From Rhodospirillales bacterium (lineage in GTDB: Bacteria; Pseudomonadota; Alphaproteobacteria; Rhodospirillales; Defluviicoccaceae): a stretch of 35,568 nt of DNA. The position numbers were made by a program, and so were the translations under genes. Positions 1 through 14,136 of the stretch are shown here, piece after piece. A model generated the notes under the pieces. The model ran no database searches. It was not told the DNA's origin and saw only the letters and a list, made by a program, of their open reading frames with translations. Where the stretch lies: contig JALOTH010000010.1 of assembly GCA_025458035.1 (NCBI GenBank), positions 1 to 35,568 on the forward strand, given 5' to 3'. The stretch's first letter is position 1, and the number at the start of each line of letters is the position of its first letter.

Positions 1-313
1 CACGGCCCGTGTAGGCGTGGTCATTGACCTTGGTAATGGTCCAGACCCGGGAGTCCGTTTCGCCGTCGTCGTAAACGAACGCCTCGTCAAGCACGAGCGT
101 CTTGCCATCCCAAGTGCCGACGATGTCAACAGTGAACTGCCGCCTTACCGTCCCGAAACGATCTTCGAACAGGCCCCAAGCCCGGGTCCGGCCGGCAAAG
201 TAGTTTTCAAGAACAAACCGGGGCTCTGCGTTGGCAAACTGCTCCGGCTTCATCGAGCTGCACCCCATTGTCATCATAGTTACCAGCAATGCGGCGAACA
301 GCCCACGAGACAT
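1..313 (-). CDS. DUF3833 family lipoprotein (partial, C-terminus outside window)
   Basis: The first 104 codons are visible; the gene runs off the left edge. The N-terminus is a short lipoprotein signal peptide ending in a lipobox-like TMGC (Cys18), so the mature protein should be lipid-anchored in the envelope. The following residues (KPEQFANAEPRFVLENYFAG, then an aromatic W-G-L-F-E-D-R-F-G stretch and V-G-T-W-D-G) resemble the lipocalin-like DUF3833 family, whose biochemical function is unknown. It starts 6 bases after the stop of the transporter gene and is the last visible gene of the five-gene lipid operon. That context suggests a role in handling modified membrane lipids, which is inference. 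Family assignment is from memory of the motif pattern. Confidence 0.75.
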   Translation of the reverse strand, partial: MSRGLFAALLVTMMTMGCSSMKPEQFANAEPRFVLENYFAGRTRAWGLFEDRFGTVRRQFTVDIVGTWDGKTLVLDEAFVYDDGETDSRVWTITKVNDHAYTGR

Positions 314-319
314 GCCAGA

Positions 320-1663
320 CTAATCCCTCGATAGCCGGCGATGTCGGGCCGACAGTCGGCGGCGTATGATATTCTGCCTGCGTTCGGTAAGCGGATGTCG
401 CCAGATCAACGCCACCGCACAGACTTTGAGTACGGTAGGGACCCCCGCATAGATCACCGCGAGCGCGAGGATCGCACCCGCTTCGTTCACCTCCCCCGGA
501 GCAAAACCGAAGGCCGCAAGTGCCGGAAATGCGATGCCCACGGCAAGGGCCAGCGCGAGTTTCGTTGCCATGCTCCACAGCGCGAAAAACAGCCCCGCTC
601 GCGCCGCGCCCGTGCGCAGCGTATCCAGATCGACGACGTCAGCTTGCATGGCCGGCGGCAGTGCCAGATCGGCGCCCAGGGCGACGCCGGTGACGATGCA
701 AATCGCGGCGAACACGAGCAGATCGCCGGGGCCGAGAAAGGGAACCCAGATGAACGCCGCACATGCCACCGCCATCGCCACGCACCATGTGCGATGCTTG
801 CCAAGCCGGCCGCTCAGCCTCACCCAAAGCGGGATCGCCGCAACACCGGAGATGAAATACAGCACGATCAGCACGCCGCGTTCGACGGCATCGGCCTGCA
901 GGCCATACTGCAAATAGAGCGGGAACAAAGCCGCTGGCAGGCCGTTGGCGAGGCCGTTGATGAACCAGCCGCCGAGCAGGCGGATGAACGGCTTGTTGGC
1001 GCGCATCGCGGCAATGTCGGCGCGACGCGGCCAGTCCGCCCGATGTCCCGGTCCGGAAACCGCTTCCGGCACCCGCCATACGAGCAGCGCGATGGTCGGC
1101 GCCCCAACACAGATCGCCAGCCACGCCACCGCCACCAGCCCGTCCCGTTCGCTGGCGCCGCTGCCCGCCGCGATCGCCGGCAAGCTGCCGGCGGCGACGA
1201 TGCCCAGCACCATCGCCATCTCGCGCGCCCCGGTGATGCGTGATCGTTGGTGGTAGTCGCTGGAGAGTTCGGCGCCCCATGCCGTGTAGGGCACGGCGAT
1301 CATTGTCCAGCCGAGATACAGGACAATCGACCAGAGAAGCAGGTAGGCGGCGCTGACATGGTCGGGCGGCTGGAACAAGGCAAGCAGGCCGGCGCCGGCA
1401 ACCACTGCCCCCGCCACCACCCATGGCCGCCGCCGTCCCCACCGCAGATGCAGCTTGTCGCTGATCACGCCGATAAGCGGATCGGTAATCACGTCGAAAA
1501 TGCGGGCGGCGAGCAGAGTGACGCCAACCGCCGCAAGGCCAAGCCCGAGATCGGCATAGAAGGACGGCAGATAGACGTATGCCGGGATCGTCGGCATGGC
1601 CAGCGCGAAGGCCGGCAGGGCATAGTACAGGAGCAGCGCGCGGGAAACCGGTGGCGCGCTCAC
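320..1663 (-). CDS. MFS transporter, GPH/MFS_2 (MelB-like) family
   Basis: This is a 447-residue protein with about twelve hydrophobic segments. The GTG start at 1663 is chosen because GGGGAT lies about 8 bases upstream and the hydrophobic core starts soon after; the open frame extends to 1768 but that part would overlap the cfa gene. Residues 57-61 (DVITD, followed by PLIG) carry the two aspartates that bind the coupling cation in MelB. They are followed by the SDK...RWGRRRPW loop typical of the glycoside-pentoside-hexuronide:cation symporter family. The same family includes the animal lysophospholipid symporter MFSD2A. The gene lies between a lipid methyltransferase (16-base gap) and a DUF3833 lipoprotein (6-base gap). 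A lipid or lipid-precursor substrate is therefore a reasonable guess, although family name alone would suggest a sugar. Confidence 0.85.
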   Translation of the reverse strand: MSAPPVSRALLLYYALPAFALAMPTIPAYVYLPSFYADLGLGLAAVGVTLLAARIFDVITDPLIGVISDKLHLRWGRRRPWVVAGAVVAGAGLLALFQPPDHVSAAYLLLWSIVLYLGWTMIAVPYTAWGAELSSDYHQRSRITGAREMAMVLGIVAAGSLPAIAAGSGASERDGLVAVAWLAICVGAPTIALLVWRVPEAVSGPGHRADWPRRADIAAMRANKPFIRLLGGWFINGLANGLPAALFPLYLQYGLQADAVERGVLIVLYFISGVAAIPLWVRLSGRLGKHRTWCVAMAVACAAFIWVPFLGPGDLLVFAAICIVTGVALGADLALPPAMQADVVDLDTLRTGAARAGLFFALWSMATKLALALAVGIAFPALAAFGFAPGEVNEAGAILALAVIYAGVPTVLKVCAVALIWRHPLTERRQNIIRRRLSARHRRLSRD

Positions 1664-1679
1664 GCGCGGATATCCCCGG

Positions 1680-2936
1680 TCACTGTGAGCCCGATGTCGT
1701 CGGCGCGACGATGCGATACTGCCCGACGTCGATGGCTGCGGTGCGGAAACCCGCTTCGCAATAGGCAAGGTAGTACAACCAAAGCCGCCGGAACCGCTCG
1801 TCGAAGCCCTGAGCCCGAATGCTGGGCCACGCCGCTTCGAACCGCTGGCGCCAAAGCGCCAGCGTTCGCGCGTACGAGGCGCCGAATGTGTCTTCGTCCG
1901 TTAACGTCAGCCCGGCAGCGCAAATGGCCGCGCGCAAGGCCGACGGACTTGGCAGCATGCCGCCAGGAAAGATGTGACGCTGAATAAAGTCAGCCGCGCG
2001 CCGATAGCGTTCGAAGCGGTCGTCGGCGATGGTGATGACTTGCAGCGCGGCAACGCCGCCGGGTTTTAAGCGTTGACGAACGACATCCCAATAAACCGGC
2101 CAGTAGGCCTCGCCGACCGCCTCGAACATTTCGATCGATGCGATCCGGTCGTAAACGCCGCTGACGTCGCGGTAATCCTGCAGCCGAACGTCGATGACGT
2201 CTTCCAGACCCTCGGCCCGAACGCGTTCGGCGGCAAACGCCCGCTGCTCCCGCGACAGCGTCAGGGCGGTGACACGACAGCCATACGATTTGGCCGCGAT
2301 GATCGCGAAAGCTCCCCAGCCGCAGCCGATTTCAAGGACATGTTGACCCGGCGCGAGTTGCAGCAGGCGGGCGAGGTTCTCATACTTCGTACTCTGCGCG
2401 GCTTCCAACGGTTGCGTGTCGTCGGCAAACATCGCCGAGGAGTAGGTCATCGACGCATCCAGCCAAGCGCCGTAGAAGCTGTTCGAGATGTCATAGTGCG
2501 CGGAGATGTTCTGCCGGCTGCCACGGCGGTTGTTGGGGCGGAGCCGGTGGCGAACGCGGTCGAGCCCGCGCAACAGCGTGTGACCCTCGATCGCATCACC
2601 GAGCGCGCGTTCGTTCAGCGAGGCGAATTCGAGAAAACCCGGCAAGTCGGGAGTATCCCAGTCCCCGTCCACGTACGCTTCGGCAAAACCGACATCACCG
2701 CCGAGAACCAAACGGCGAAAGGCGCGGGCGCGGTTGACCGTCACGGATACGCGCCGCCCGGGATCGCGCCGGCCCTCAATTAATCGCGCCTGGCCGTTGG
2801 GCAGCAGGAGCGCGCATTGACCGACTTCCAGGCGGCTACCGGCCGCCGACAACAAGGCCCGAGTCCAGAGGTCCGTCGGGGATGACTTGCCGGCGAGCAG
2901 CCAGGAGAGCGGATTGGCGATATCGAGGAGCGGCAT
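1680..2936 (-). CDS. cfa: Cyclopropane-fatty-acyl-phospholipid synthase family SAM methyltransferase
   Basis: A 418-residue enzyme expected to transfer a methyl or methylene group from S-adenosylmethionine to an unsaturated acyl chain of a membrane phospholipid. The N-terminal 130 residues form the lipid-binding part. HYDISNSFY lies at 147-155, the SAM-binding loop VLEIGCGWG at 200-208, and the family-typical QVITI and FIQRHIFPGG blocks at 299-303 and 317-326. Length is near the usual 380-430. It is the third gene of the operon, 22 bases after DUF1365. In Rhodobacter a relative (CfaA/UfaM) methylates vaccenic acid as a step to furan fatty acids rather than making a cyclopropane ring. Which reaction applies here cannot be told from sequence. 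Confidence 0.93.
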   Translation of the reverse strand: MPLLDIANPLSWLLAGKSSPTDLWTRALLSAAGSRLEVGQCALLLPNGQARLIEGRRDPGRRVSVTVNRARAFRRLVLGGDVGFAEAYVDGDWDTPDLPGFLEFASLNERALGDAIEGHTLLRGLDRVRHRLRPNNRRGSRQNISAHYDISNSFYGAWLDASMTYSSAMFADDTQPLEAAQSTKYENLARLLQLAPGQHVLEIGCGWGAFAIIAAKSYGCRVTALTLSREQRAFAAERVRAEGLEDVIDVRLQDYRDVSGVYDRIASIEMFEAVGEAYWPVYWDVVRQRLKPGGVAALQVITIADDRFERYRRAADFIQRHIFPGGMLPSPSALRAAICAAGLTLTDEDTFGASYARTLALWRQRFEAAWPSIRAQGFDERFRRLWLYYLAYCEAGFRTAAIDVGQYRIVAPTTSGSQ

Positions 2937-2958: not shown

Positions 2959-3759
2959 TTAGGGCGCGGTCGGATGCACGATACTGACCGGTTCGGGCGG
3001 AGGCGACGGACGACGGACGAGCGGGATCCCCTTCAGCCAAAGCTTCAGGGCTTCCCAGTGGATGCCGGCAATGACCTTGAAGGTCAGCAACGGCAGTCGG
3101 ACGGCATAGACGAGAAGGGTTCTGTCGTTGAGGGGGCGTCGTTTGCCCTGAAAACTGGCATACAATCGCGTGCCCTCGTCATCACGATAGTCGATGCCGA
3201 TGGCCACCCGCTCACCGTCGGTGCTGGGCGCCTTGACACGAAAGCGATACTCCCCATCGACGGCGAAGAACGGCGAGACGTAGAGGCGCTTGGCGCAGGA
3301 CTGGCGGATGATTTTCCCGCTGCCGTCGCCAACGGGAATCAGATAGCTGTGGCGCTCGCCAAATGTATTGCTAACCTCGTAAAGAATGGCGGCCAGAACC
3401 CCGTCGCGGCGACGGCAGAAGTAGACACTCAGCGGATTGAAAACGTAGCCAAGCACGCGCGGGTAGCACAGAACCTGGACCGAGCCATCCGCAACATCGA
3501 TGCCGGCAGCGGACAGCGTCGCAATCACGCGCTCGCGGATCGGCGCGCCGGCGCCATTGCCGTGATCCCGATCATAAAAACTGTAGAGATTAAACCGGTT
3601 CCGTGAAAACAGGCGCAGTCGTCCGGCGGCGGCGTCAATGTCGTCCAGATCGAGCAGCAGGGAGAGCACGCGATAGCGCAGGCGGTGGCGGCGCGGCTTG
3701 ACGCGCTGATGGACGACATCGCCGATGTACAGGCCCGATCTGTCACTGCCGCCGTTCAT
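2959..3759 (-). CDS. DUF1365 family protein
   Basis: A 266-residue protein starting at ATG 3759, which overlaps the stop of the preceding flavoprotein gene in an ATGA (3756-3759), implying translational coupling. The open frame reaches 3825, but the region before the ATG lies inside the upstream gene. Recognisable DUF1365 landmarks are the N-terminal GLYIGDVVHQRVKPRRHRLR, VLCYPRVLGYVFNPLSVYFC in the middle, YEVSNTFGERHSY, and RLYVSPFF. The family is nearly always found beside a CFA-synthase-like enzyme and an NAD(P)/FAD protein, as here. Its biochemical role is not established; some relatives were implicated in furan fatty acid synthesis in Rhodobacter (from memory). No transmembrane helix or signal peptide is evident. 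Confidence 0.9.
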   Translation of the reverse strand: MNGGSDRSGLYIGDVVHQRVKPRRHRLRYRVLSLLLDLDDIDAAAGRLRLFSRNRFNLYSFYDRDHGNGAGAPIRERVIATLSAAGIDVADGSVQVLCYPRVLGYVFNPLSVYFCRRRDGVLAAILYEVSNTFGERHSYLIPVGDGSGKIIRQSCAKRLYVSPFFAVDGEYRFRVKAPSTDGERVAIGIDYRDDEGTRLYASFQGKRRPLNDRTLLVYAVRLPLLTFKVIAGIHWEALKLWLKGIPLVRRPSPPPEPVSIVHPTAP

Positions 3760-5135
3760 GCGGCGGCTCTCGGCTCGACAGCGGCGCCCTGGGACTGATC
3801 CTGTCCTGCCGCGGGCGCCATCCACGGCCGCGCCACGCCGCCGGATGCCTCTGCTGCGTTCAACCCCGAAACCAGGGCATCTTCATGGAAGCCCGCACCA
3901 AAGTAGCTGCCGCAATACCAGGTGGAGCGGTGACCGGATAGCTGCGCCAATGCGGTTTGTGCCGCCAGTGCCCGATGGTCAAAGGTGGGGTGGCTGTAAT
4001 CGAAGGCGGCGATGACGTGCTCCGCCTGTGGCGGCCGTATCGGGTTCAACGTTACGAACAGCGGGTAACGCTCGTCGATATTCTGCAATCTGTTCATCCA
4101 ATAGGTGACCGATATCGCCCGCTCGCCGGGTGAGCGTCGCTCACCCAGATAGTTCCAGCTGGACCACGCGGCGCGGCGCTTCGGCATGAGCCGACGATCG
4201 GAATGGAGAATGGCGCGGTTGCGCGCATAGCGAAAGGCGGAAAGCAGATCTTGCTCATCCCGACTGGGATCGGCCAGCAACCGCAGCGCCTGGTCCGCAT
4301 GGGTGGCGACGACGACCCGGTCGAAGGCGGTCTTCGTCCCATTGGTTTCTTCAACGACGACGCCAGCATCGACGCGATGGATGCGGCGCACGCAGGCGTT
4401 CAGACGGATGCCATCGGCATAGGGTTCCGACAGAATCTTGATGTACTCGCGGGCGCCTCCGGTGACGGTGCGCCACTGTGGACGGCCAGACACGCGCATC
4501 AGTCCATGCGCCATGCAAAACTGCACGAAGGCCCGCGCCGGGTGCATGCGCATGTCGCCGGCGGGCGTCGACCAGATGGCCGCCGCCATCGGCAGCAGGT
4601 GATCGTCAATGAAGGCTTCGGAATAATTGCAACGATCCAGATACGCACCCAGTGTCAGGGTGGCCGCGTCGGCCATGTTCAACACGTCCGGCCCGTAGCG
4701 ATAGAACCGCAGAATATCCCGCAGCATCCGCCAGAAGCGCGGACGCAAGACGTTGCTCGGCTGGGCGAACAACCCTTTCAGGTCACTGCCGGCATACTCG
4801 AGGTGGCCGTCGTCCATGGACACCGAAAACGACATGTTTGACGCTTCGGTTGCGATGCCCAGGTGACGAAACAACGCCGTCAGGTTCGGGTAGTTGCACT
4901 CGTTGTAGACGATGAACCCCGTGTCGACAGCGATATGGCGGCCATCGTCGCAGGATATGTCGACGGTATTGGTGTGCCCGCCCAGTCGTCCGTCCTTTTC
5001 GAACAACGTCACACGATGCCGTTGTGAGAGCAGCCATGCCGCCGACAGGCCGGCAACACCGCTGCCGATGACGGCGATCGACAGGCTCGGCGGTGTGGTT
5101 TTGGCGAGGTTGCGCGGCATGGTTCCCACGGGCAC
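3756..5135 (-). CDS. FAD/NAD(P)-binding protein (flavin amine oxidase-like) of the lipid operon
   Basis: A 459-residue flavoprotein. The Rossmann dinucleotide motif GSGVAG is at 24-29, followed by LFEKDGRLGGHT at 44-55, as in flavin-containing amine oxidases, desaturases and cyclopropane-cluster oxidoreductases; a second FAD contact, YCGSYFGAGFHEDALVSGL, lies near the C-terminus. The GTG at 5135 has a good AAAGGAT ribosome site, but the promoter at 5152-5180 would start transcription only about 10 bases before it. The ATG at 5120 (454 residues) is therefore a serious alternative. It is first in the operon and overlaps DUF1365 by 4 bases. By analogy with Rhodobacter it may oxidise or desaturate methylated acyl chains; that is inference. 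Confidence 0.88.
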   Translation of the reverse strand: MPVGTMPRNLAKTTPPSLSIAVIGSGVAGLSAAWLLSQRHRVTLFEKDGRLGGHTNTVDISCDDGRHIAVDTGFIVYNECNYPNLTALFRHLGIATEASNMSFSVSMDDGHLEYAGSDLKGLFAQPSNVLRPRFWRMLRDILRFYRYGPDVLNMADAATLTLGAYLDRCNYSEAFIDDHLLPMAAAIWSTPAGDMRMHPARAFVQFCMAHGLMRVSGRPQWRTVTGGAREYIKILSEPYADGIRLNACVRRIHRVDAGVVVEETNGTKTAFDRVVVATHADQALRLLADPSRDEQDLLSAFRYARNRAILHSDRRLMPKRRAAWSSWNYLGERRSPGERAISVTYWMNRLQNIDERYPLFVTLNPIRPPQAEHVIAAFDYSHPTFDHRALAAQTALAQLSGHRSTWYCGSYFGAGFHEDALVSGLNAAEASGGVARPWMAPAAGQDQSQGAAVEPRAAA

Positions 5136-5151
5136 GGTTATCCTTTGGCTC

Positions 5152-5180
5152 GCTTACGCCGCCCACATCGCCACGGATCA
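5152..5180 (-). promoter_or_regulatory. Candidate RpoE (ChrR-controlled, ECF11-type) promoter
   Basis: On the minus strand TGATCC (5180-5175) is followed after exactly 18 bases by TAAGC (5156-5152). The RpoE promoter consensus of Rhodobacter sphaeroides, active in the singlet-oxygen response, is TGATCC-N18-TAAGA as I recall it, so only the last base differs. It lies directly before the flavoprotein gene that heads the lipid operon, whose homologues belong to that regulon. No rpoE or chrR gene is visible in the window, so the sigma factor would have to be encoded elsewhere. Confidence 0.65.
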
Positions 5181-5223: not shown

Positions 5224-5892
5224 TCACGCCGGATACGCCAGCAGGCGGACGAGGCTGAAGACGCCGAAACCGAGAACGAGGGAGCCAAGAATGGCATTGA
5301 CCGCCGAAACCGCCTTCGTCGATGCGTGGCGGCGCACGGCGCGCGCGGCGCTGATCAGGGTCACCCACCACAACATGGAGCCGACAAAGACGCCGACGAT
5401 GACGACCCAGTTGTCCAGCAGCCGTCCCGTCTCGCTGGCAAACAGGCCAAAGCCGGCAAAAACGAAGGCGAACGCCGCCAGCGTTGCCGGGTTGATGATG
5501 GTCAACCCGAAGCCGGTGGCAAAATCGCCCAGCCACCAGCGCCAGCCCCGCGTCGGCGACGGCGCCAGCTCCAACGCTTCCTCGATGCGGTAGTGGCGGG
5601 TGCGGATCATGCGGATTCCGAGCACGATCAACACCACCCCGCCAATCAGCAGCAACGGGCCTTCGTGGTCGAGGACATACTGGGTGATCAGCGTCAGGCT
5701 CAGCATCGCTCCTGCTGCCAGGATCGAGTCGGCGAGGGCCGCACCGCAGCCGGTGCACAAACCATCGATCCACAGTCCCTGCAACGCACGCTTGAGGCAG
5801 ATGGCACCAATAGCGCCCACCGGCACGGCAACGACGAAGCCGGCGACGATCGCCTTGATCAGCTTGACCCATAGTCCCGCCTCGAACAGCAC
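5224..5892 (-). CDS. LysE/RhtB family transporter
   Basis: A 222-residue integral membrane protein with about six hydrophobic segments, the size and layout of the LysE/RhtB exporters that move amino acids or small metabolites out of the cytoplasm. The first segment carries VAVPVGAIGAICLKRAL, equivalent to the family's P-x-G-P start, and the fourth contains the typical IINPATLAAFAFVF (N-P motif). The GTG start at 5892 is chosen because GGAAG lies about 6 bases upstream and the membrane part begins within 10 residues; the open frame continues upstream to 6021 but that stretch is hydrophilic. It lies 88 bases before the RpoE-like promoter operon. Substrate is unknown. Confidence 0.8.
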   Translation of the reverse strand: MLFEAGLWVKLIKAIVAGFVVAVPVGAIGAICLKRALQGLWIDGLCTGCGAALADSILAAGAMLSLTLITQYVLDHEGPLLLIGGVVLIVLGIRMIRTRHYRIEEALELAPSPTRGWRWWLGDFATGFGLTIINPATLAAFAFVFAGFGLFASETGRLLDNWVVIVGVFVGSMLWWVTLISAARAVRRHASTKAVSAVNAILGSLVLGFGVFSLVRLLAYPA

Positions 5893-6721: not shown

Positions 6722-9198
6722 GGCGTGACGGTCGCCAGCAACGGAATCTGGCCCCCGCGTGCCGGTTCGTCCGGTTCGCGGCCGGTCGCCTCGGCGATCA
6801 GTTCGCGCGCCGCCCGGTCGAACAGCTCGTCGACACCGCCGCCGAACACGCTCTCCCGGCCGATTTCCAGCAATACCGGCACCGCCAGTGGCGAGACACG
6901 ATCGAGGCGGCGAACGAGGATGCGCCCGCGAATGCGTTTGAGCATGGCGGCAAGGCGGTCGAGATCGACGAAGCCGCGAGCGGCGTCGGCGTGCGTCGCT
7001 CGCAGCAACACGTGCGTGGGGTCGTGCTGCCGCAGTACGGTATAGATCAGATCGGAGTTGACGGTGAGCTGCCGGCCGCTGCGTTCGCGTCCCGGCTGCC
7101 GGCGGTCGATCAGCCCGGCGATGACGGCGACGTTGCGAAAGGTGCGCTTGAGCACGGAGGACTCCGCCATCCACTCTTCCAGATCGTCCCCCAGCATGTC
7201 TTCGGCAAACAGCGCCTCGACGTCATCGGCCTCATGTACACTCCACAGGGCCAGCACGTAATCGGTGGCAACGAAGCCCAGCGGCCCCAGCCCCGCGCGC
7301 TCCATGCGCCGCGACAGGAGCATCCCCAGTGTCTGATGGGCGTTGCGGCCTTCAAAGGCATAGGCGACGAGGAATGCCTTGCCCCCGCGCGGGAACAGCT
7401 CGACCAGCAGGTCGTCTGCTCCCGGCAGGCGCGAACGCTGCGCCTGCAGCGCCAGCCATTCGCCAACGGGGCGCGGCAGCGCCGACCAGCCAGCCTCGTC
7501 CGCGAGCATCGCCCGCACGCGGGCCGCGAGGTGGGTCGACAGCGGCAGCCGGCCGCCGGCATAGGCCGGCACCTTGGGCTCGCCGCCGCTGGCCCGGCTG
7601 ACCACCGCCGTCGTTTCGCGCACGCCTTCGAAGCGCAACACCTCGCCCGCGAACACAAAGGTATCGCCGGGCTGAAGCCCCTGGATGAAGTATTCCTCCA
7701 CTTCGCCGAGCACCGGCCCCCGCCGCAGCCGCACCTTCAGCGTCACCGCCTCGACGATGGTGCCGATATTCATCCGATAGCGCTGCGCATGCGCCGCCGA
7801 GGTCAGCCGCCAGCGGCCGTCAGCGGTCGGCTCCAGCCGGCGCCAGCGCTCGTAGGTTTTCAGCGCATATCCGCCGTCGGCGACAAAGGCGAGCGTCGCT
7901 GCGAAGTCCGCCGGCGACAGTGCGGCGTAGGGAGCGGCGGTGCGCACCTCGGCATACAGCGCGTCGGCGGCAAACGGCCCGGCGCAGGCAACCCCCAGCA
8001 GGTGTTGCGCCAGCACTTCGAGACCGCCGGGCGGCGGCGCCTCGCCGTCGAGGGTGCGGGCGCGCACGGCGTCGACGGCGGCCCGGCATTCCAGAACCTC
8101 GAACCGATTGGCCGGCACCAGCAGCGCCCGGCTCGTCCGGTCGAGGCGATGGCCGCTCCGGCCAATGCGCTGGACGAGCCGGCTGACACCCTTCGGCGCA
8201 CCGATCTGCACGACCTGGTCGACCGTCGCCCAATCGATGCCGAGGTCGAGGGATGAGGTGGCAACGACGGCGCGCAGCCGTCCGGACGCCATCGCCGCCT
8301 CCACCCGCCGCCGCTGCTCGACGGCAAGGCTGCCGTGATGCAAGGCGATGGGCAGGTTGGCTTCGTTGATGTGCCAAAGCTGCTGAAAGATGATCTCGGC
8401 CTGCGCCCGGGTGTTGACAAAAACGATCGTCGTTGCCGCGCCGGCGATCGCCGCATAAACGGCGGGCAAGGCGTGCAGCGCCATGTGCCCCGACCACGGC
8501 ATCCAGCCTTCCGGCTCGAGGATTTCGATCTGGGGCTTGCGGTCATCGGGGCAGCGGATCACCCGCACGTCGGCGGGCTGCGCATGCGGCGACAGCCATG
8601 CCCGCAGGTCATCCTCGCGCGCAACGGTCGCCGAGAGTCCGACCCGCCGACACCCGGGCGCCAGCGCCTGCAGCCTCGCGAGGCCCAGCGCCAACAGATC
8701 GCCGCGCTTGCTGCCGGCCAGGGCGTGCAACTCGTCGATGATCACCGTCTGGAGACCGGCGAACAGGTCTGCCGAGTCCGCATACGACAGCAGCAGCGCC
8801 AGCGACTCCGGCGTTGTCATCAGCAATTGCGGTGGCTGGCGGCGCTGGCGCTGGCGCTTCGCCTGCGGCGTATCACCGGTGCGGGTTTCGGCACGCAGCG
8901 CCAGCCCCATCTCGGCGATCGGCCGTTCGAGATTGCGGTGGACATCCTGCGTCAGTGCCTTCAGCGGCGAGATGTAGAGGGTGGATAGGGCGCTCCCCGC
9001 CGGCCTCCGATCACCGCCATCGGCGTCGATCAATGATGGCAGGAAGCCGGCAAGGGTCTTGCCGCCGCCGGTGGGCGCGATCAGCAGGGCGTGCGCGCCG
9101 TCACGGGCCGCCGCCAGCATCTCCAACTGGTGCGCGTAGGGCTGCCAGCCGCGGGCGGCAAACCAAGCGGCAAAACGGGTCGGTAGCGGCGGCGTCAT
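6718..9198 (-). CDS. Ligase-associated DNA damage response DEXH-box helicase (LA-Lhr)
   Basis: An 826-residue superfamily 2 helicase, the usual length for LA-Lhr (TIGR04121 type). Motifs in order are Walker A APTGGGKT (41-48), motif Ia YISPLKAL (75-82), TTPESL (128-133), DELH Walker B (155-158), SAT (189-191), TSSLDLGID (314-322) and motif VI QRIGRSGHR (343-351). They are followed by the winged-helix and Lhr-core C-terminal parts. Related Lhr proteins are 3'-5' DNA translocases that unwind RNA:DNA hybrids. ATG 9198 is chosen over the upstream extension to 9309, which is not family-like and would overlap the divergent exonuclease gene. It is coupled to pdeM and diverges from the exonuclease gene. 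Confidence 0.93.
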   Translation of the reverse strand: MTPPLPTRFAAWFAARGWQPYAHQLEMLAAARDGAHALLIAPTGGGKTLAGFLPSLIDADGGDRRPAGSALSTLYISPLKALTQDVHRNLERPIAEMGLALRAETRTGDTPQAKRQRQRRQPPQLLMTTPESLALLLSYADSADLFAGLQTVIIDELHALAGSKRGDLLALGLARLQALAPGCRRVGLSATVAREDDLRAWLSPHAQPADVRVIRCPDDRKPQIEILEPEGWMPWSGHMALHALPAVYAAIAGAATTIVFVNTRAQAEIIFQQLWHINEANLPIALHHGSLAVEQRRRVEAAMASGRLRAVVATSSLDLGIDWATVDQVVQIGAPKGVSRLVQRIGRSGHRLDRTSRALLVPANRFEVLECRAAVDAVRARTLDGEAPPPGGLEVLAQHLLGVACAGPFAADALYAEVRTAAPYAALSPADFAATLAFVADGGYALKTYERWRRLEPTADGRWRLTSAAHAQRYRMNIGTIVEAVTLKVRLRRGPVLGEVEEYFIQGLQPGDTFVFAGEVLRFEGVRETTAVVSRASGGEPKVPAYAGGRLPLSTHLAARVRAMLADEAGWSALPRPVGEWLALQAQRSRLPGADDLLVELFPRGGKAFLVAYAFEGRNAHQTLGMLLSRRMERAGLGPLGFVATDYVLALWSVHEADDVEALFAEDMLGDDLEEWMAESSVLKRTFRNVAVIAGLIDRRQPGRERSGRQLTVNSDLIYTVLRQHDPTHVLLRATHADAARGFVDLDRLAAMLKRIRGRILVRRLDRVSPLAVPVLLEIGRESVFGGGVDELFDRAARELIAEATGREPDEPARGGQIPLLATVTP

Positions 9199-13329: not shown

Positions 13330-14136
13330 ATGAGCTCCTGGCGGCGTGAACCTCTCCTGCATTTCACCGTGTTGGCGGGCATCCTGTTCGGGCTGTATCA
13401 GTGGGTTGGCCCAAAGCCGACCAACTCCGCCGTCATCGTCGTCGACGCCGCCGTGCGCAACGACATGATCGATCGCTTTCGCAAGGCGACCCAGCGCGAA
13501 CCGGCGCCGGCCGAACTGGACCATCTCATCGACGGCTGGATCGCCAAGGAGGTCATGTATCGCCAGGGACTGGCGATGGGCCTGGACCGCAGCGACGGCC
13601 GCATCCGGGAAATCGTCATCGCCAACATGCATGCACTGGTCCGCGCGCAGTCGGTTCCGGATGCGCCGCCGGAAAGCGAGCTGCAGAAGTGGTTCGAACA
13701 GCGCCGGTCAAACTATGATCGCCCCCGGACTTTCGATTTCGTACAGGTGCTGTTCGCCGGCGACGACGCCGATGCGCAAGCGCGCGCGCAGCAGGCCCGT
13801 CTGACGCTCGCCAGTGCCGCCAACTCCGAGGAGGCCGAGCCGCACCTTCGCCCCTATCGGCAGCGCACGCGCGAGCAGGTGGTCAAGACCTATGGCGAAG
13901 CCTTCGCCGCGGCGCTGGAGCGCCAGCCGCTGGGAGAGTGGGGCGTGCTGCGCTCGATGCGAGGCTGGCACGCTGTGCGATTGGATGCGATCGCCGAACC
14001 GCAGGCCGCGGTGTTTGAAACGCTCAAGGCACAGTTGGAGAACGATTGGCGCCGCGAGAAGGAATTCGAACTCGCCGCCGAAATGCAGCGGGCGATGCGC
14101 GCCAGCTACACCGTCGAGCGCGTCGACCAGCCGTGA
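13330..14136 (+). CDS. Membrane-anchored peptidyl-prolyl cis-trans isomerase (parvulin type)
   Basis: A 268-residue protein with one N-terminal hydrophobic helix (about 10-26) acting as an uncleaved anchor. An N-terminal helical region (VRNDMIDRFRKATQREPAP, then a WIAKEVMYRQGLAMGLDRSD block typical of SurA/PpiC chaperones) follows, then a degenerate PpiC domain (RTFDFVQVLFA through LGEWGVLRSMRGWHAVRLD). It should assist folding of exported proteins in the periplasm. ATG 13330 is chosen with GGGGAA about 8 bases upstream; the frame is open back to 13258. The stop overlaps the start of the next gene in a GTGA (14133-14136). A PPIase next to a HupE/UreJ_2 gene is a recurrent pairing in proteobacteria (from memory). 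It may mature that membrane protein or its partners. Confidence 0.82.
   Translation: MSSWRREPLLHFTVLAGILFGLYQWVGPKPTNSAVIVVDAAVRNDMIDRFRKATQREPAPAELDHLIDGWIAKEVMYRQGLAMGLDRSDGRIREIVIANMHALVRAQSVPDAPPESELQKWFEQRRSNYDRPRTFDFVQVLFAGDDADAQARAQQARLTLASAANSEEAEPHLRPYRQRTREQVVKTYGEAFAAALERQPLGEWGVLRSMRGWHAVRLDAIAEPQAAVFETLKAQLENDWRREKEFELAAEMQRAMRASYTVERVDQP

Follow-up and report, generated by a model that had tools for sequence, protein, structure and literature searches.

As far as the accessible text of the relevant paper goes, R. sphaeroides and R. palustris form furan fatty acids from vaccenoyl chains by means of UfaD, UfaO and UfaM, which in the latter producer are encoded in the order ufaD-ufaO-ufaM by RPA2571-2569 (PMC7380195). 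The accessible literature on R. sphaeroides places ufaD and ufaO at the head of RSP1091-1087 (ufaD, ufaO, RSP1089-1087), a core operon of the RpoE-ChrR regulon, and ufaM elsewhere as RSP2144; part of a review counts the genes for furan fatty acids among the core members of this regulon and describes them as required for the turnover of ChrR under singlet oxygen (PMC6852236). According to the available portions of three further papers, RpoE-type sites in P. syringae and S. oneidensis are of the form TGATCC-N16-CGTA, and the site of pos19 from R. sphaeroides, TGATCC-N15-GCGTA, has this form as well (PMC5507510, PMC4336711, PMC5036791).

Here we analysed a stretch of 35,568 bases from a Rhodospirillales bacterium, called the window in the following, in which a predicted ECF11 (RpoE/ChrR) promoter precedes an operon of this kind and is a well-supported addition to the known regulon. 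Genes for a flavin amine oxidase-type protein, a DUF1365 protein, which we take to be UfaO, and a CMAS methyltransferase adjoin in one direction and are followed by genes for a GPH transporter and a DUF3833 protein. The features of the locus are:

5175..5180, minus strand: -35 element TGATCC, 94% mean pairwise identity in six family loci
5153..5158, minus strand: -10 element CGTAAG with the core CGTA at 5158-5155, CGTA being identical in 6/6 family loci
5121..5152, minus strand: stretch between -10 element and start codon, holding AAAGGA at 5146-5141
3756..5120, minus strand: ufaD-like flavoprotein, putative fatty acyl desaturase of furan fatty acid synthesis by homology and context (PF01593, 80.4 bits)
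2959..3825, minus strand: ufaO-like protein, DUF1365 (PF07103, 277.5 bits)
1680..2936, minus strand: ufaM-like SAM-dependent fatty acyl methyltransferase of the CMAS family (PF02353, 285.2 bits)
320..1768, minus strand: GPH/MFS_2 transporter (PF13347, 294.5 bits)
2..313, minus strand: DUF3833 protein, truncated at the contig end (PF12915, 116.5 bits)

The operon had been regarded as uncharacterised in the initial annotation, which does not hold for its first three genes, as they match the published ufaD-ufaO-ufaM in families and order; among the papers listed by our literature searches, none names the operon for the organism studied here. RPA2571-2569, as described in the accessible text, codes for the same enzymes in the same order, but here the GPH and DUF3833 genes follow. 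The order of ufaD first and ufaO second is also that described for R. sphaeroides, whose lipoprotein gene RSP1088 further on probably corresponds to the DUF3833 gene, whereas its ufaM lies apart and here follows ufaO inside the operon. From the operon context we would assign the CMAS family member to UfaM and not to Cfa; the protein matched the NCBIfam Cfa equivalogs below their cut-off. By analogy to its relatives the operon is predicted to lead to furan fatty acids.

Upstream of ufaD the minus strand reads TGATCC (5180-5175), then 18 bases, then TAAG (5156-5153). The two boxes at exactly this spacing had been reported before and were confirmed, TGATCC-N17..19-TAAG occurring only once in the window compared to a mean of 0.02 over 100 shuffles. 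As the published sites have the form TGATCC-N16-CGTA and the window site fits this form, that of ECF11-type sites, perfectly in all ten bases, the informative -10 is CGTA rather than TAAG. The single deviation from the consensus that had been pointed out does exist and concerns the base after TAAG, but it carries little weight because this position is varied (A 11, C 8, G 7, T 4) in the 30 full sense sites found among the best 80 of at least 590 named ufaD loci.

The genome of the window (3.13 Mb, 239 contigs, 96% complete, contamination estimate 0.59%) was also searched, as had been suggested, for further sites of the TAAG type; it holds two of TGATCC-N17..19-TAAG in total, the second with N17 and inside a 342-aa ORF, and TGATC-N17..19-TAAG occurs eight times compared to one in the control. 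Such TAAG-based patterns were set aside for N16-CGTA, TAAG being the less informative -10. TGATCN-N16-CGTA occurs 15 times compared to 0 for the pattern read backwards, with the full TGATCC in eight of the 15. In our judgement five of these eight are placed before the start of a gene, namely of ufaD, rpoE, a fragment of rpoH and two short ORFs, whereas the C14, C132 and C232:15040 sites are internal to ORFs. The ORF calls behind this split are mechanical, and the ufaD, rpoE and rpoH sites, too, fall within ORFs that we judged spurious. The rpoE site also overlaps the end of the preceding gene, and ORFs of 110 and 473 aa begin 13 and 81 bases downstream of the C14 and C232:15040 sites. Other than these five and those before further genes of the predicted regulon described below, the TGATCN-N16-CGTA sites, mostly inside ORFs, are taken as background. 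One TGATCT-N16-CGTA match lies inside the GPH gene on the minus strand (window 431-456, equal to C232:431-456), 117 bases before the DUF3833 start; as a promoter it was set aside as probably due to chance.

The initial annotation had named the lack of an ECF11/ChrR pair in the genome as a finding that would refute the promoter, and such a pair is present, on contig C173 and not on the window contig. There the gene of a 217-aa sigma factor overlaps that of a 217-aa ChrR, followed by a DUF6134 and an SDR gene. The ChrR passes TIGR02451 with 193.8 bits (cut-off 124.5), both solved sequences that it matched are ChrR (2z2s as best and 2q1z), and it has the zinc anti-sigma domain and a cupin with all zinc ligands kept; all eight zinc ligands named in the accessible part of PMC6852236 are found in its alignment to 2z2s_B. 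For the sigma factor RpoE 2q1z is the best solved match with 152 bits compared to 68 for the next, and together with its ChrR partner this points to an ECF11-type RpoE. Upstream of this rpoE we found TGATCC-N16-CGTAAC (C173:4016-4041) with 39 bases from CGTA to the ATG. Both contigs end close to these genes, the window inside the DUF3833 gene and C173 about 1.1 kb past the SDR gene, and in three family members (L140-L142) the sigma/ChrR pair lies at most about 8 kb downstream of ufaD and convergent with it. One family member has a second sigma/ChrR pair (L145, G001:C124) that shows no site of at least 9/11 within 300 bases upstream, and the same is true for the pair of G004 (L147).

Among the 11 genomes of the family, ufaD was found at E 1e-40 in six, all of which have a ChrR over the cut-off, and ChrR passes the cut-off in nine; the three genomes with such a ChrR and without UfaD at E 1e-40 (G002, G003 and G005) count against the promoter reading. 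The site is present upstream in 6/6 family ufaD loci, three with 11/11 and three with 10/11 bases. Over these six loci the mean pairwise identity is 0.94 for the -35 and 1.00 for CGTA, compared to 0.26 for the spacer and 0.24-0.36 for the 30-base flanks, and such conserved boxes around a diverged spacer are the pattern expected if selection acts on a promoter. With this conservation and the sigma/ChrR pair in the genome, the earlier proposal of an RpoE/ChrR-type promoter driving the operon gains support.

We then extended the comparison to named loci, using the best 80 of at least 590 confirmed ufaD loci, a sample to which all counts in this paragraph refer. A sense site of at least 10/11 at gap 16 and at most 400 bases upstream was found in 44/80, compared to 0-2/80 at each other gap (10-15, 17-22), while 36/80 score below 10/11, which counts against the promoter reading. 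On the opposite strand 55/80 have such a site at gap 16 and 0-1 at other gaps. In 58/80 ufaD is flanked by a divergently oriented sigma gene, so the absence of rpoE from the surroundings, as stated initially, is correct for the window contig but does not extend to these other loci. Fifty-two of the 58 loci with a divergent sigma gene have the opposite-strand site, and in seven of the 22 loci that lack an adjacent sigma gene the sense site scores 10 or more. Head-to-head sites, both of at least 10/11, are seen in 34/58 divergent sigma-ufaD loci, the two -35 boxes being 4-59 bases apart in 31 of these, and such sigma and ufaD promoters may compete or cooperate.

For a test at the level of the class, 289 genomes were surveyed, 100 with ChrR over the cut-off, 142 with DUF1365 and 97 with both. 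UfaD was taken from the DUF1365 neighbourhood and a site of at least 9/10 was sought from 300 bases upstream to 60 bases inside the gene. The ChrR-positive sample comprised the top 40 by DUF1365 score among the 97, excluding the genome of the window, and the comparison sample 40 of the 45 genomes with DUF1365 and without ChrR over the cut-off, excluding G056, G074, G231, G256 and G269 (G056 and G074 are fragments and G231 is too close to a contig end). The site was found in 18/40 ChrR-positive genomes, in 1/29 without a ChrR match and in 0/11 with a weak ChrR; for 18/40 versus 1/29 a Fisher test gives p 9e-5, a value that is only a guide given the shared ancestry among the genomes. Other gaps gave 0-2/40 in the ChrR-positive genomes. 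That 22/40 of them have no such site near ufaD counts against the promoter reading. DUF1365 without a ChrR match occurs in 31/289 class genomes, 25 of the 31 being at most 2.0 Mb in size, and a UfaD homologue lies beside DUF1365 in all 29 such genomes fetched (e.g. L191-L219), with the promoter site in 1/29. Judged by these genes, the ChrR-free genomes with DUF1365 would carry furan-lipid-like genes minus the usual regulator.

The operon could also owe its transcription to read-through from lysE or to a housekeeping promoter, with the motif present by chance. The neighbourhood offers some points for this: lysE has the same orientation as ufaD and its end is at 5224, two family members (L142, L146) likewise have a LysE homologue ahead of ufaD, and a sigma-70-like match inside lysE (5522-5495, minus strand; 9/12 bases with 0.2 expected) points at ufaD. 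A scan of the intergenic stretch between lysE and ufaD found no terminator or inverted repeat, and the lone terminator-like match of the scan (5479-5467) lies inside lysE. We nevertheless regard this explanation as very improbable in view of a chance expectation of 0.02 per window, a site kept in 6/6 family loci around an unconserved spacer and the spacing specificity in the named loci (best 80 of at least 590); read-through could add to the promoter, not replace it. The co-directional lysE and the sigma-70-like match leave room for such other transcription of the operon. Slightly more remote still, with a search that covered part of the ECF sigma genes in the genome, is the use of the site by an ECF sigma factor other than the C173 RpoE, since the same site lies upstream of the C173 sigma gene itself and the sites accompany ChrR across genomes (18/40 versus 1/29). 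Around the other cupin match of the genome, on C189, no sigma gene was seen by eye among ORFs of at least 150 aa, and this double-cupin protein (a 378-aa frame below the ChrR cut-off) was set aside as a ChrR partner.

The distance of the site to the gene bears on the start of ufaD. The initial annotation had offered either ATG 5120 as the true start or a nearly leaderless message beginning near GTG 5135. The family N-termini and the distances between CGTA and start favour the former: five family homologues, read from the nearest in-frame ATG, begin with MP(F/R)D 13 residues before a conserved IAVIG-like stretch, which is preceded by 14 residues from ATG 5120 (MPRN) and by 19 from GTG 5135. From CGTA it is 34 bases to ATG 5120 and 19 to GTG 5135, and elsewhere in the genome we found 39 for rpoE, 37 for a glutathione peroxidase, 32 and 34 for the photolyases and 31 and 58 for the short ORFs; for the rpoH fragment the first ATG follows after only 7 and the next in-frame ATG at 49. 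AAAGGA (5146-5141), five bases before GTG 5135, argues for the GTG. In our estimate translation probably starts at ATG 5120 and not at GTG 5135. ECF promoters generally start transcription about 5-8 bases past the -10, and with this geometry the transcript would start at the corresponding distance here and ATG 5120 would have a leader of about 25-30 bases; a nearly leaderless message is not favoured.

The other sites suggest a wider regulon. On C92 one site faces the rpoH fragment (Sigma70_r1_2), cut by the contig end, and a TGATCT-type site faces a glutathione peroxidase (PF00255) whose N-terminus resembles a signal peptide by eye (compare Shewanella pgpD). Both photolyases have weaker sites with 10/11 and 9/11 bases. 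In R. sphaeroides RpoE reportedly controls rpoHII. Among the 30 family rpoH loci covered out of 56 matches, eight from six genomes have a site of at least 9/11 at most 400 bases upstream, three of the eight in G001 including one with CGCAA that is probably due to chance; a further rpoH copy (G000 C21) has too little upstream DNA for the comparison. The two short ORFs, both unannotated, are:

L236:1588-1707 (G000:C171), minus strand: 39-codon ORF with a full TGATCC-N16-CGTA site at 13738-13763, minus strand
L017:1585-1683 (G000:C25), plus strand: 32-codon hydrophobic ORF with a full site at 8328-8353, plus strand

Each has a Shine-Dalgarno-like stretch before and a hairpin behind it. For the C171 ORF, whose layout is similar to that of pos19 from R. 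sphaeroides, these are GGAGG and a strong hairpin without a U run (fold z -2.8), and in the C25 ORF TTTT follows a few bases after the predicted hairpin. Pfam gave no match above the cut-off for the C171 ORF and none for the C25 ORF, and in a comparison with 270 records neither had a homologue other than copies of itself, apart from one match over 19 residues at E 0.23. As a tentative proposal, to which we give somewhat less than even weight, RpoE might drive ufa, rpoE, rpoH, glutathione peroxidase, the two photolyases and two pos19-like short genes, the latter giving rise to small peptides of membrane type, or to small RNAs with coding capacity, in the response to singlet oxygen. These two short ORFs are the least explained part of the predicted regulon.

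Taken together we are highly confident that 5180-5153 (minus strand) is the promoter of ufaD-ufaO-ufaM-GPH-DUF3833, used by a ChrR-held ECF11-type RpoE under singlet oxygen or organic peroxides. Recognition of this putative switch, before genes predicted to make an unusual and protective membrane lipid, by a regulator already known from singlet-oxygen stress is very probable. ChrR would hold the RpoE of the genome inactive until it is lost upon the generation of singlet oxygen, by bacteriochlorophyll or a different sensitiser, or upon the formation of organic peroxides. The freed RpoE would then transcribe the operon from this site, and UfaM, UfaD and UfaO would convert phospholipid vaccenoyl chains into furan fatty acids, which are targets of singlet oxygen. 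If furan lipids are needed for ChrR turnover as in R. sphaeroides, a positive loop would result. The site and its conservation, the cognate pair with its autoregulatory site, the enzyme families and their order and the puf genes were observed directly; sigma binding, induction, lipid product and feedback are carried over from the relatives and would have to be alike here.

As pufBALMC is present in the genome, a source of singlet oxygen is likely in this organism; misbinning of the puf contig is conceivable in principle, the contamination estimate of the genome being 0.59%. The circuit does not depend on phototrophy in the family, because reaction-centre genes occur in 2/11 genomes compared to ufaD in 6/11, and peroxides are possible as a trigger. 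That a real promoter answers mainly to organic peroxides, cadmium or UV-A instead of singlet oxygen is, in our view, unlikely, with an appreciable chance left to it: activation of RpoE by organic hydroperoxides, too, is described in the accessible part of the review (PMC6852236), PF00124 gave no match in four of the six family genomes that carry ufaD, and the closest NCBIfam equivalog of the C173 ChrR is the cadmium/peroxide/UV type, with 149.7 of 300 bits and below the cut-off. Besides the likely source given by pufBALMC, the conserved cupin zinc ligands of this ChrR stand against it, as the singlet-oxygen response needs them according to the same part of the review (PMC6852236).

With singlet oxygen as the preferred trigger, one more lineage would have its furan fatty acid synthesis linked to the regulator of the singlet-oxygen response, with the enzyme operon and the regulator on different contigs that bear the same promoter, and an anoxygenic phototroph would gain a small and testable predicted regulon. 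Compared to the described systems the promoter is a fresh example of an already known circuit and not a new circuit. The accessible literature on the RpoE2 regulon of S. oneidensis and the PSPTO_1043 regulon of P. syringae gives the same TGATCC-N16-CGTA before rpoE and phrB/cfa operons and, in Shewanella, also before a periplasmic glutathione peroxidase; these two organisms are Gammaproteobacteria, in which the first gene of the operon is phrB (P. syringae) or ybgA (Shewanella). Unlike in R. sphaeroides, the SDR gene sits here with rpoE-chrR-DUF6134 on the other contig, and rpoE is not adjacent to the ufa operon.
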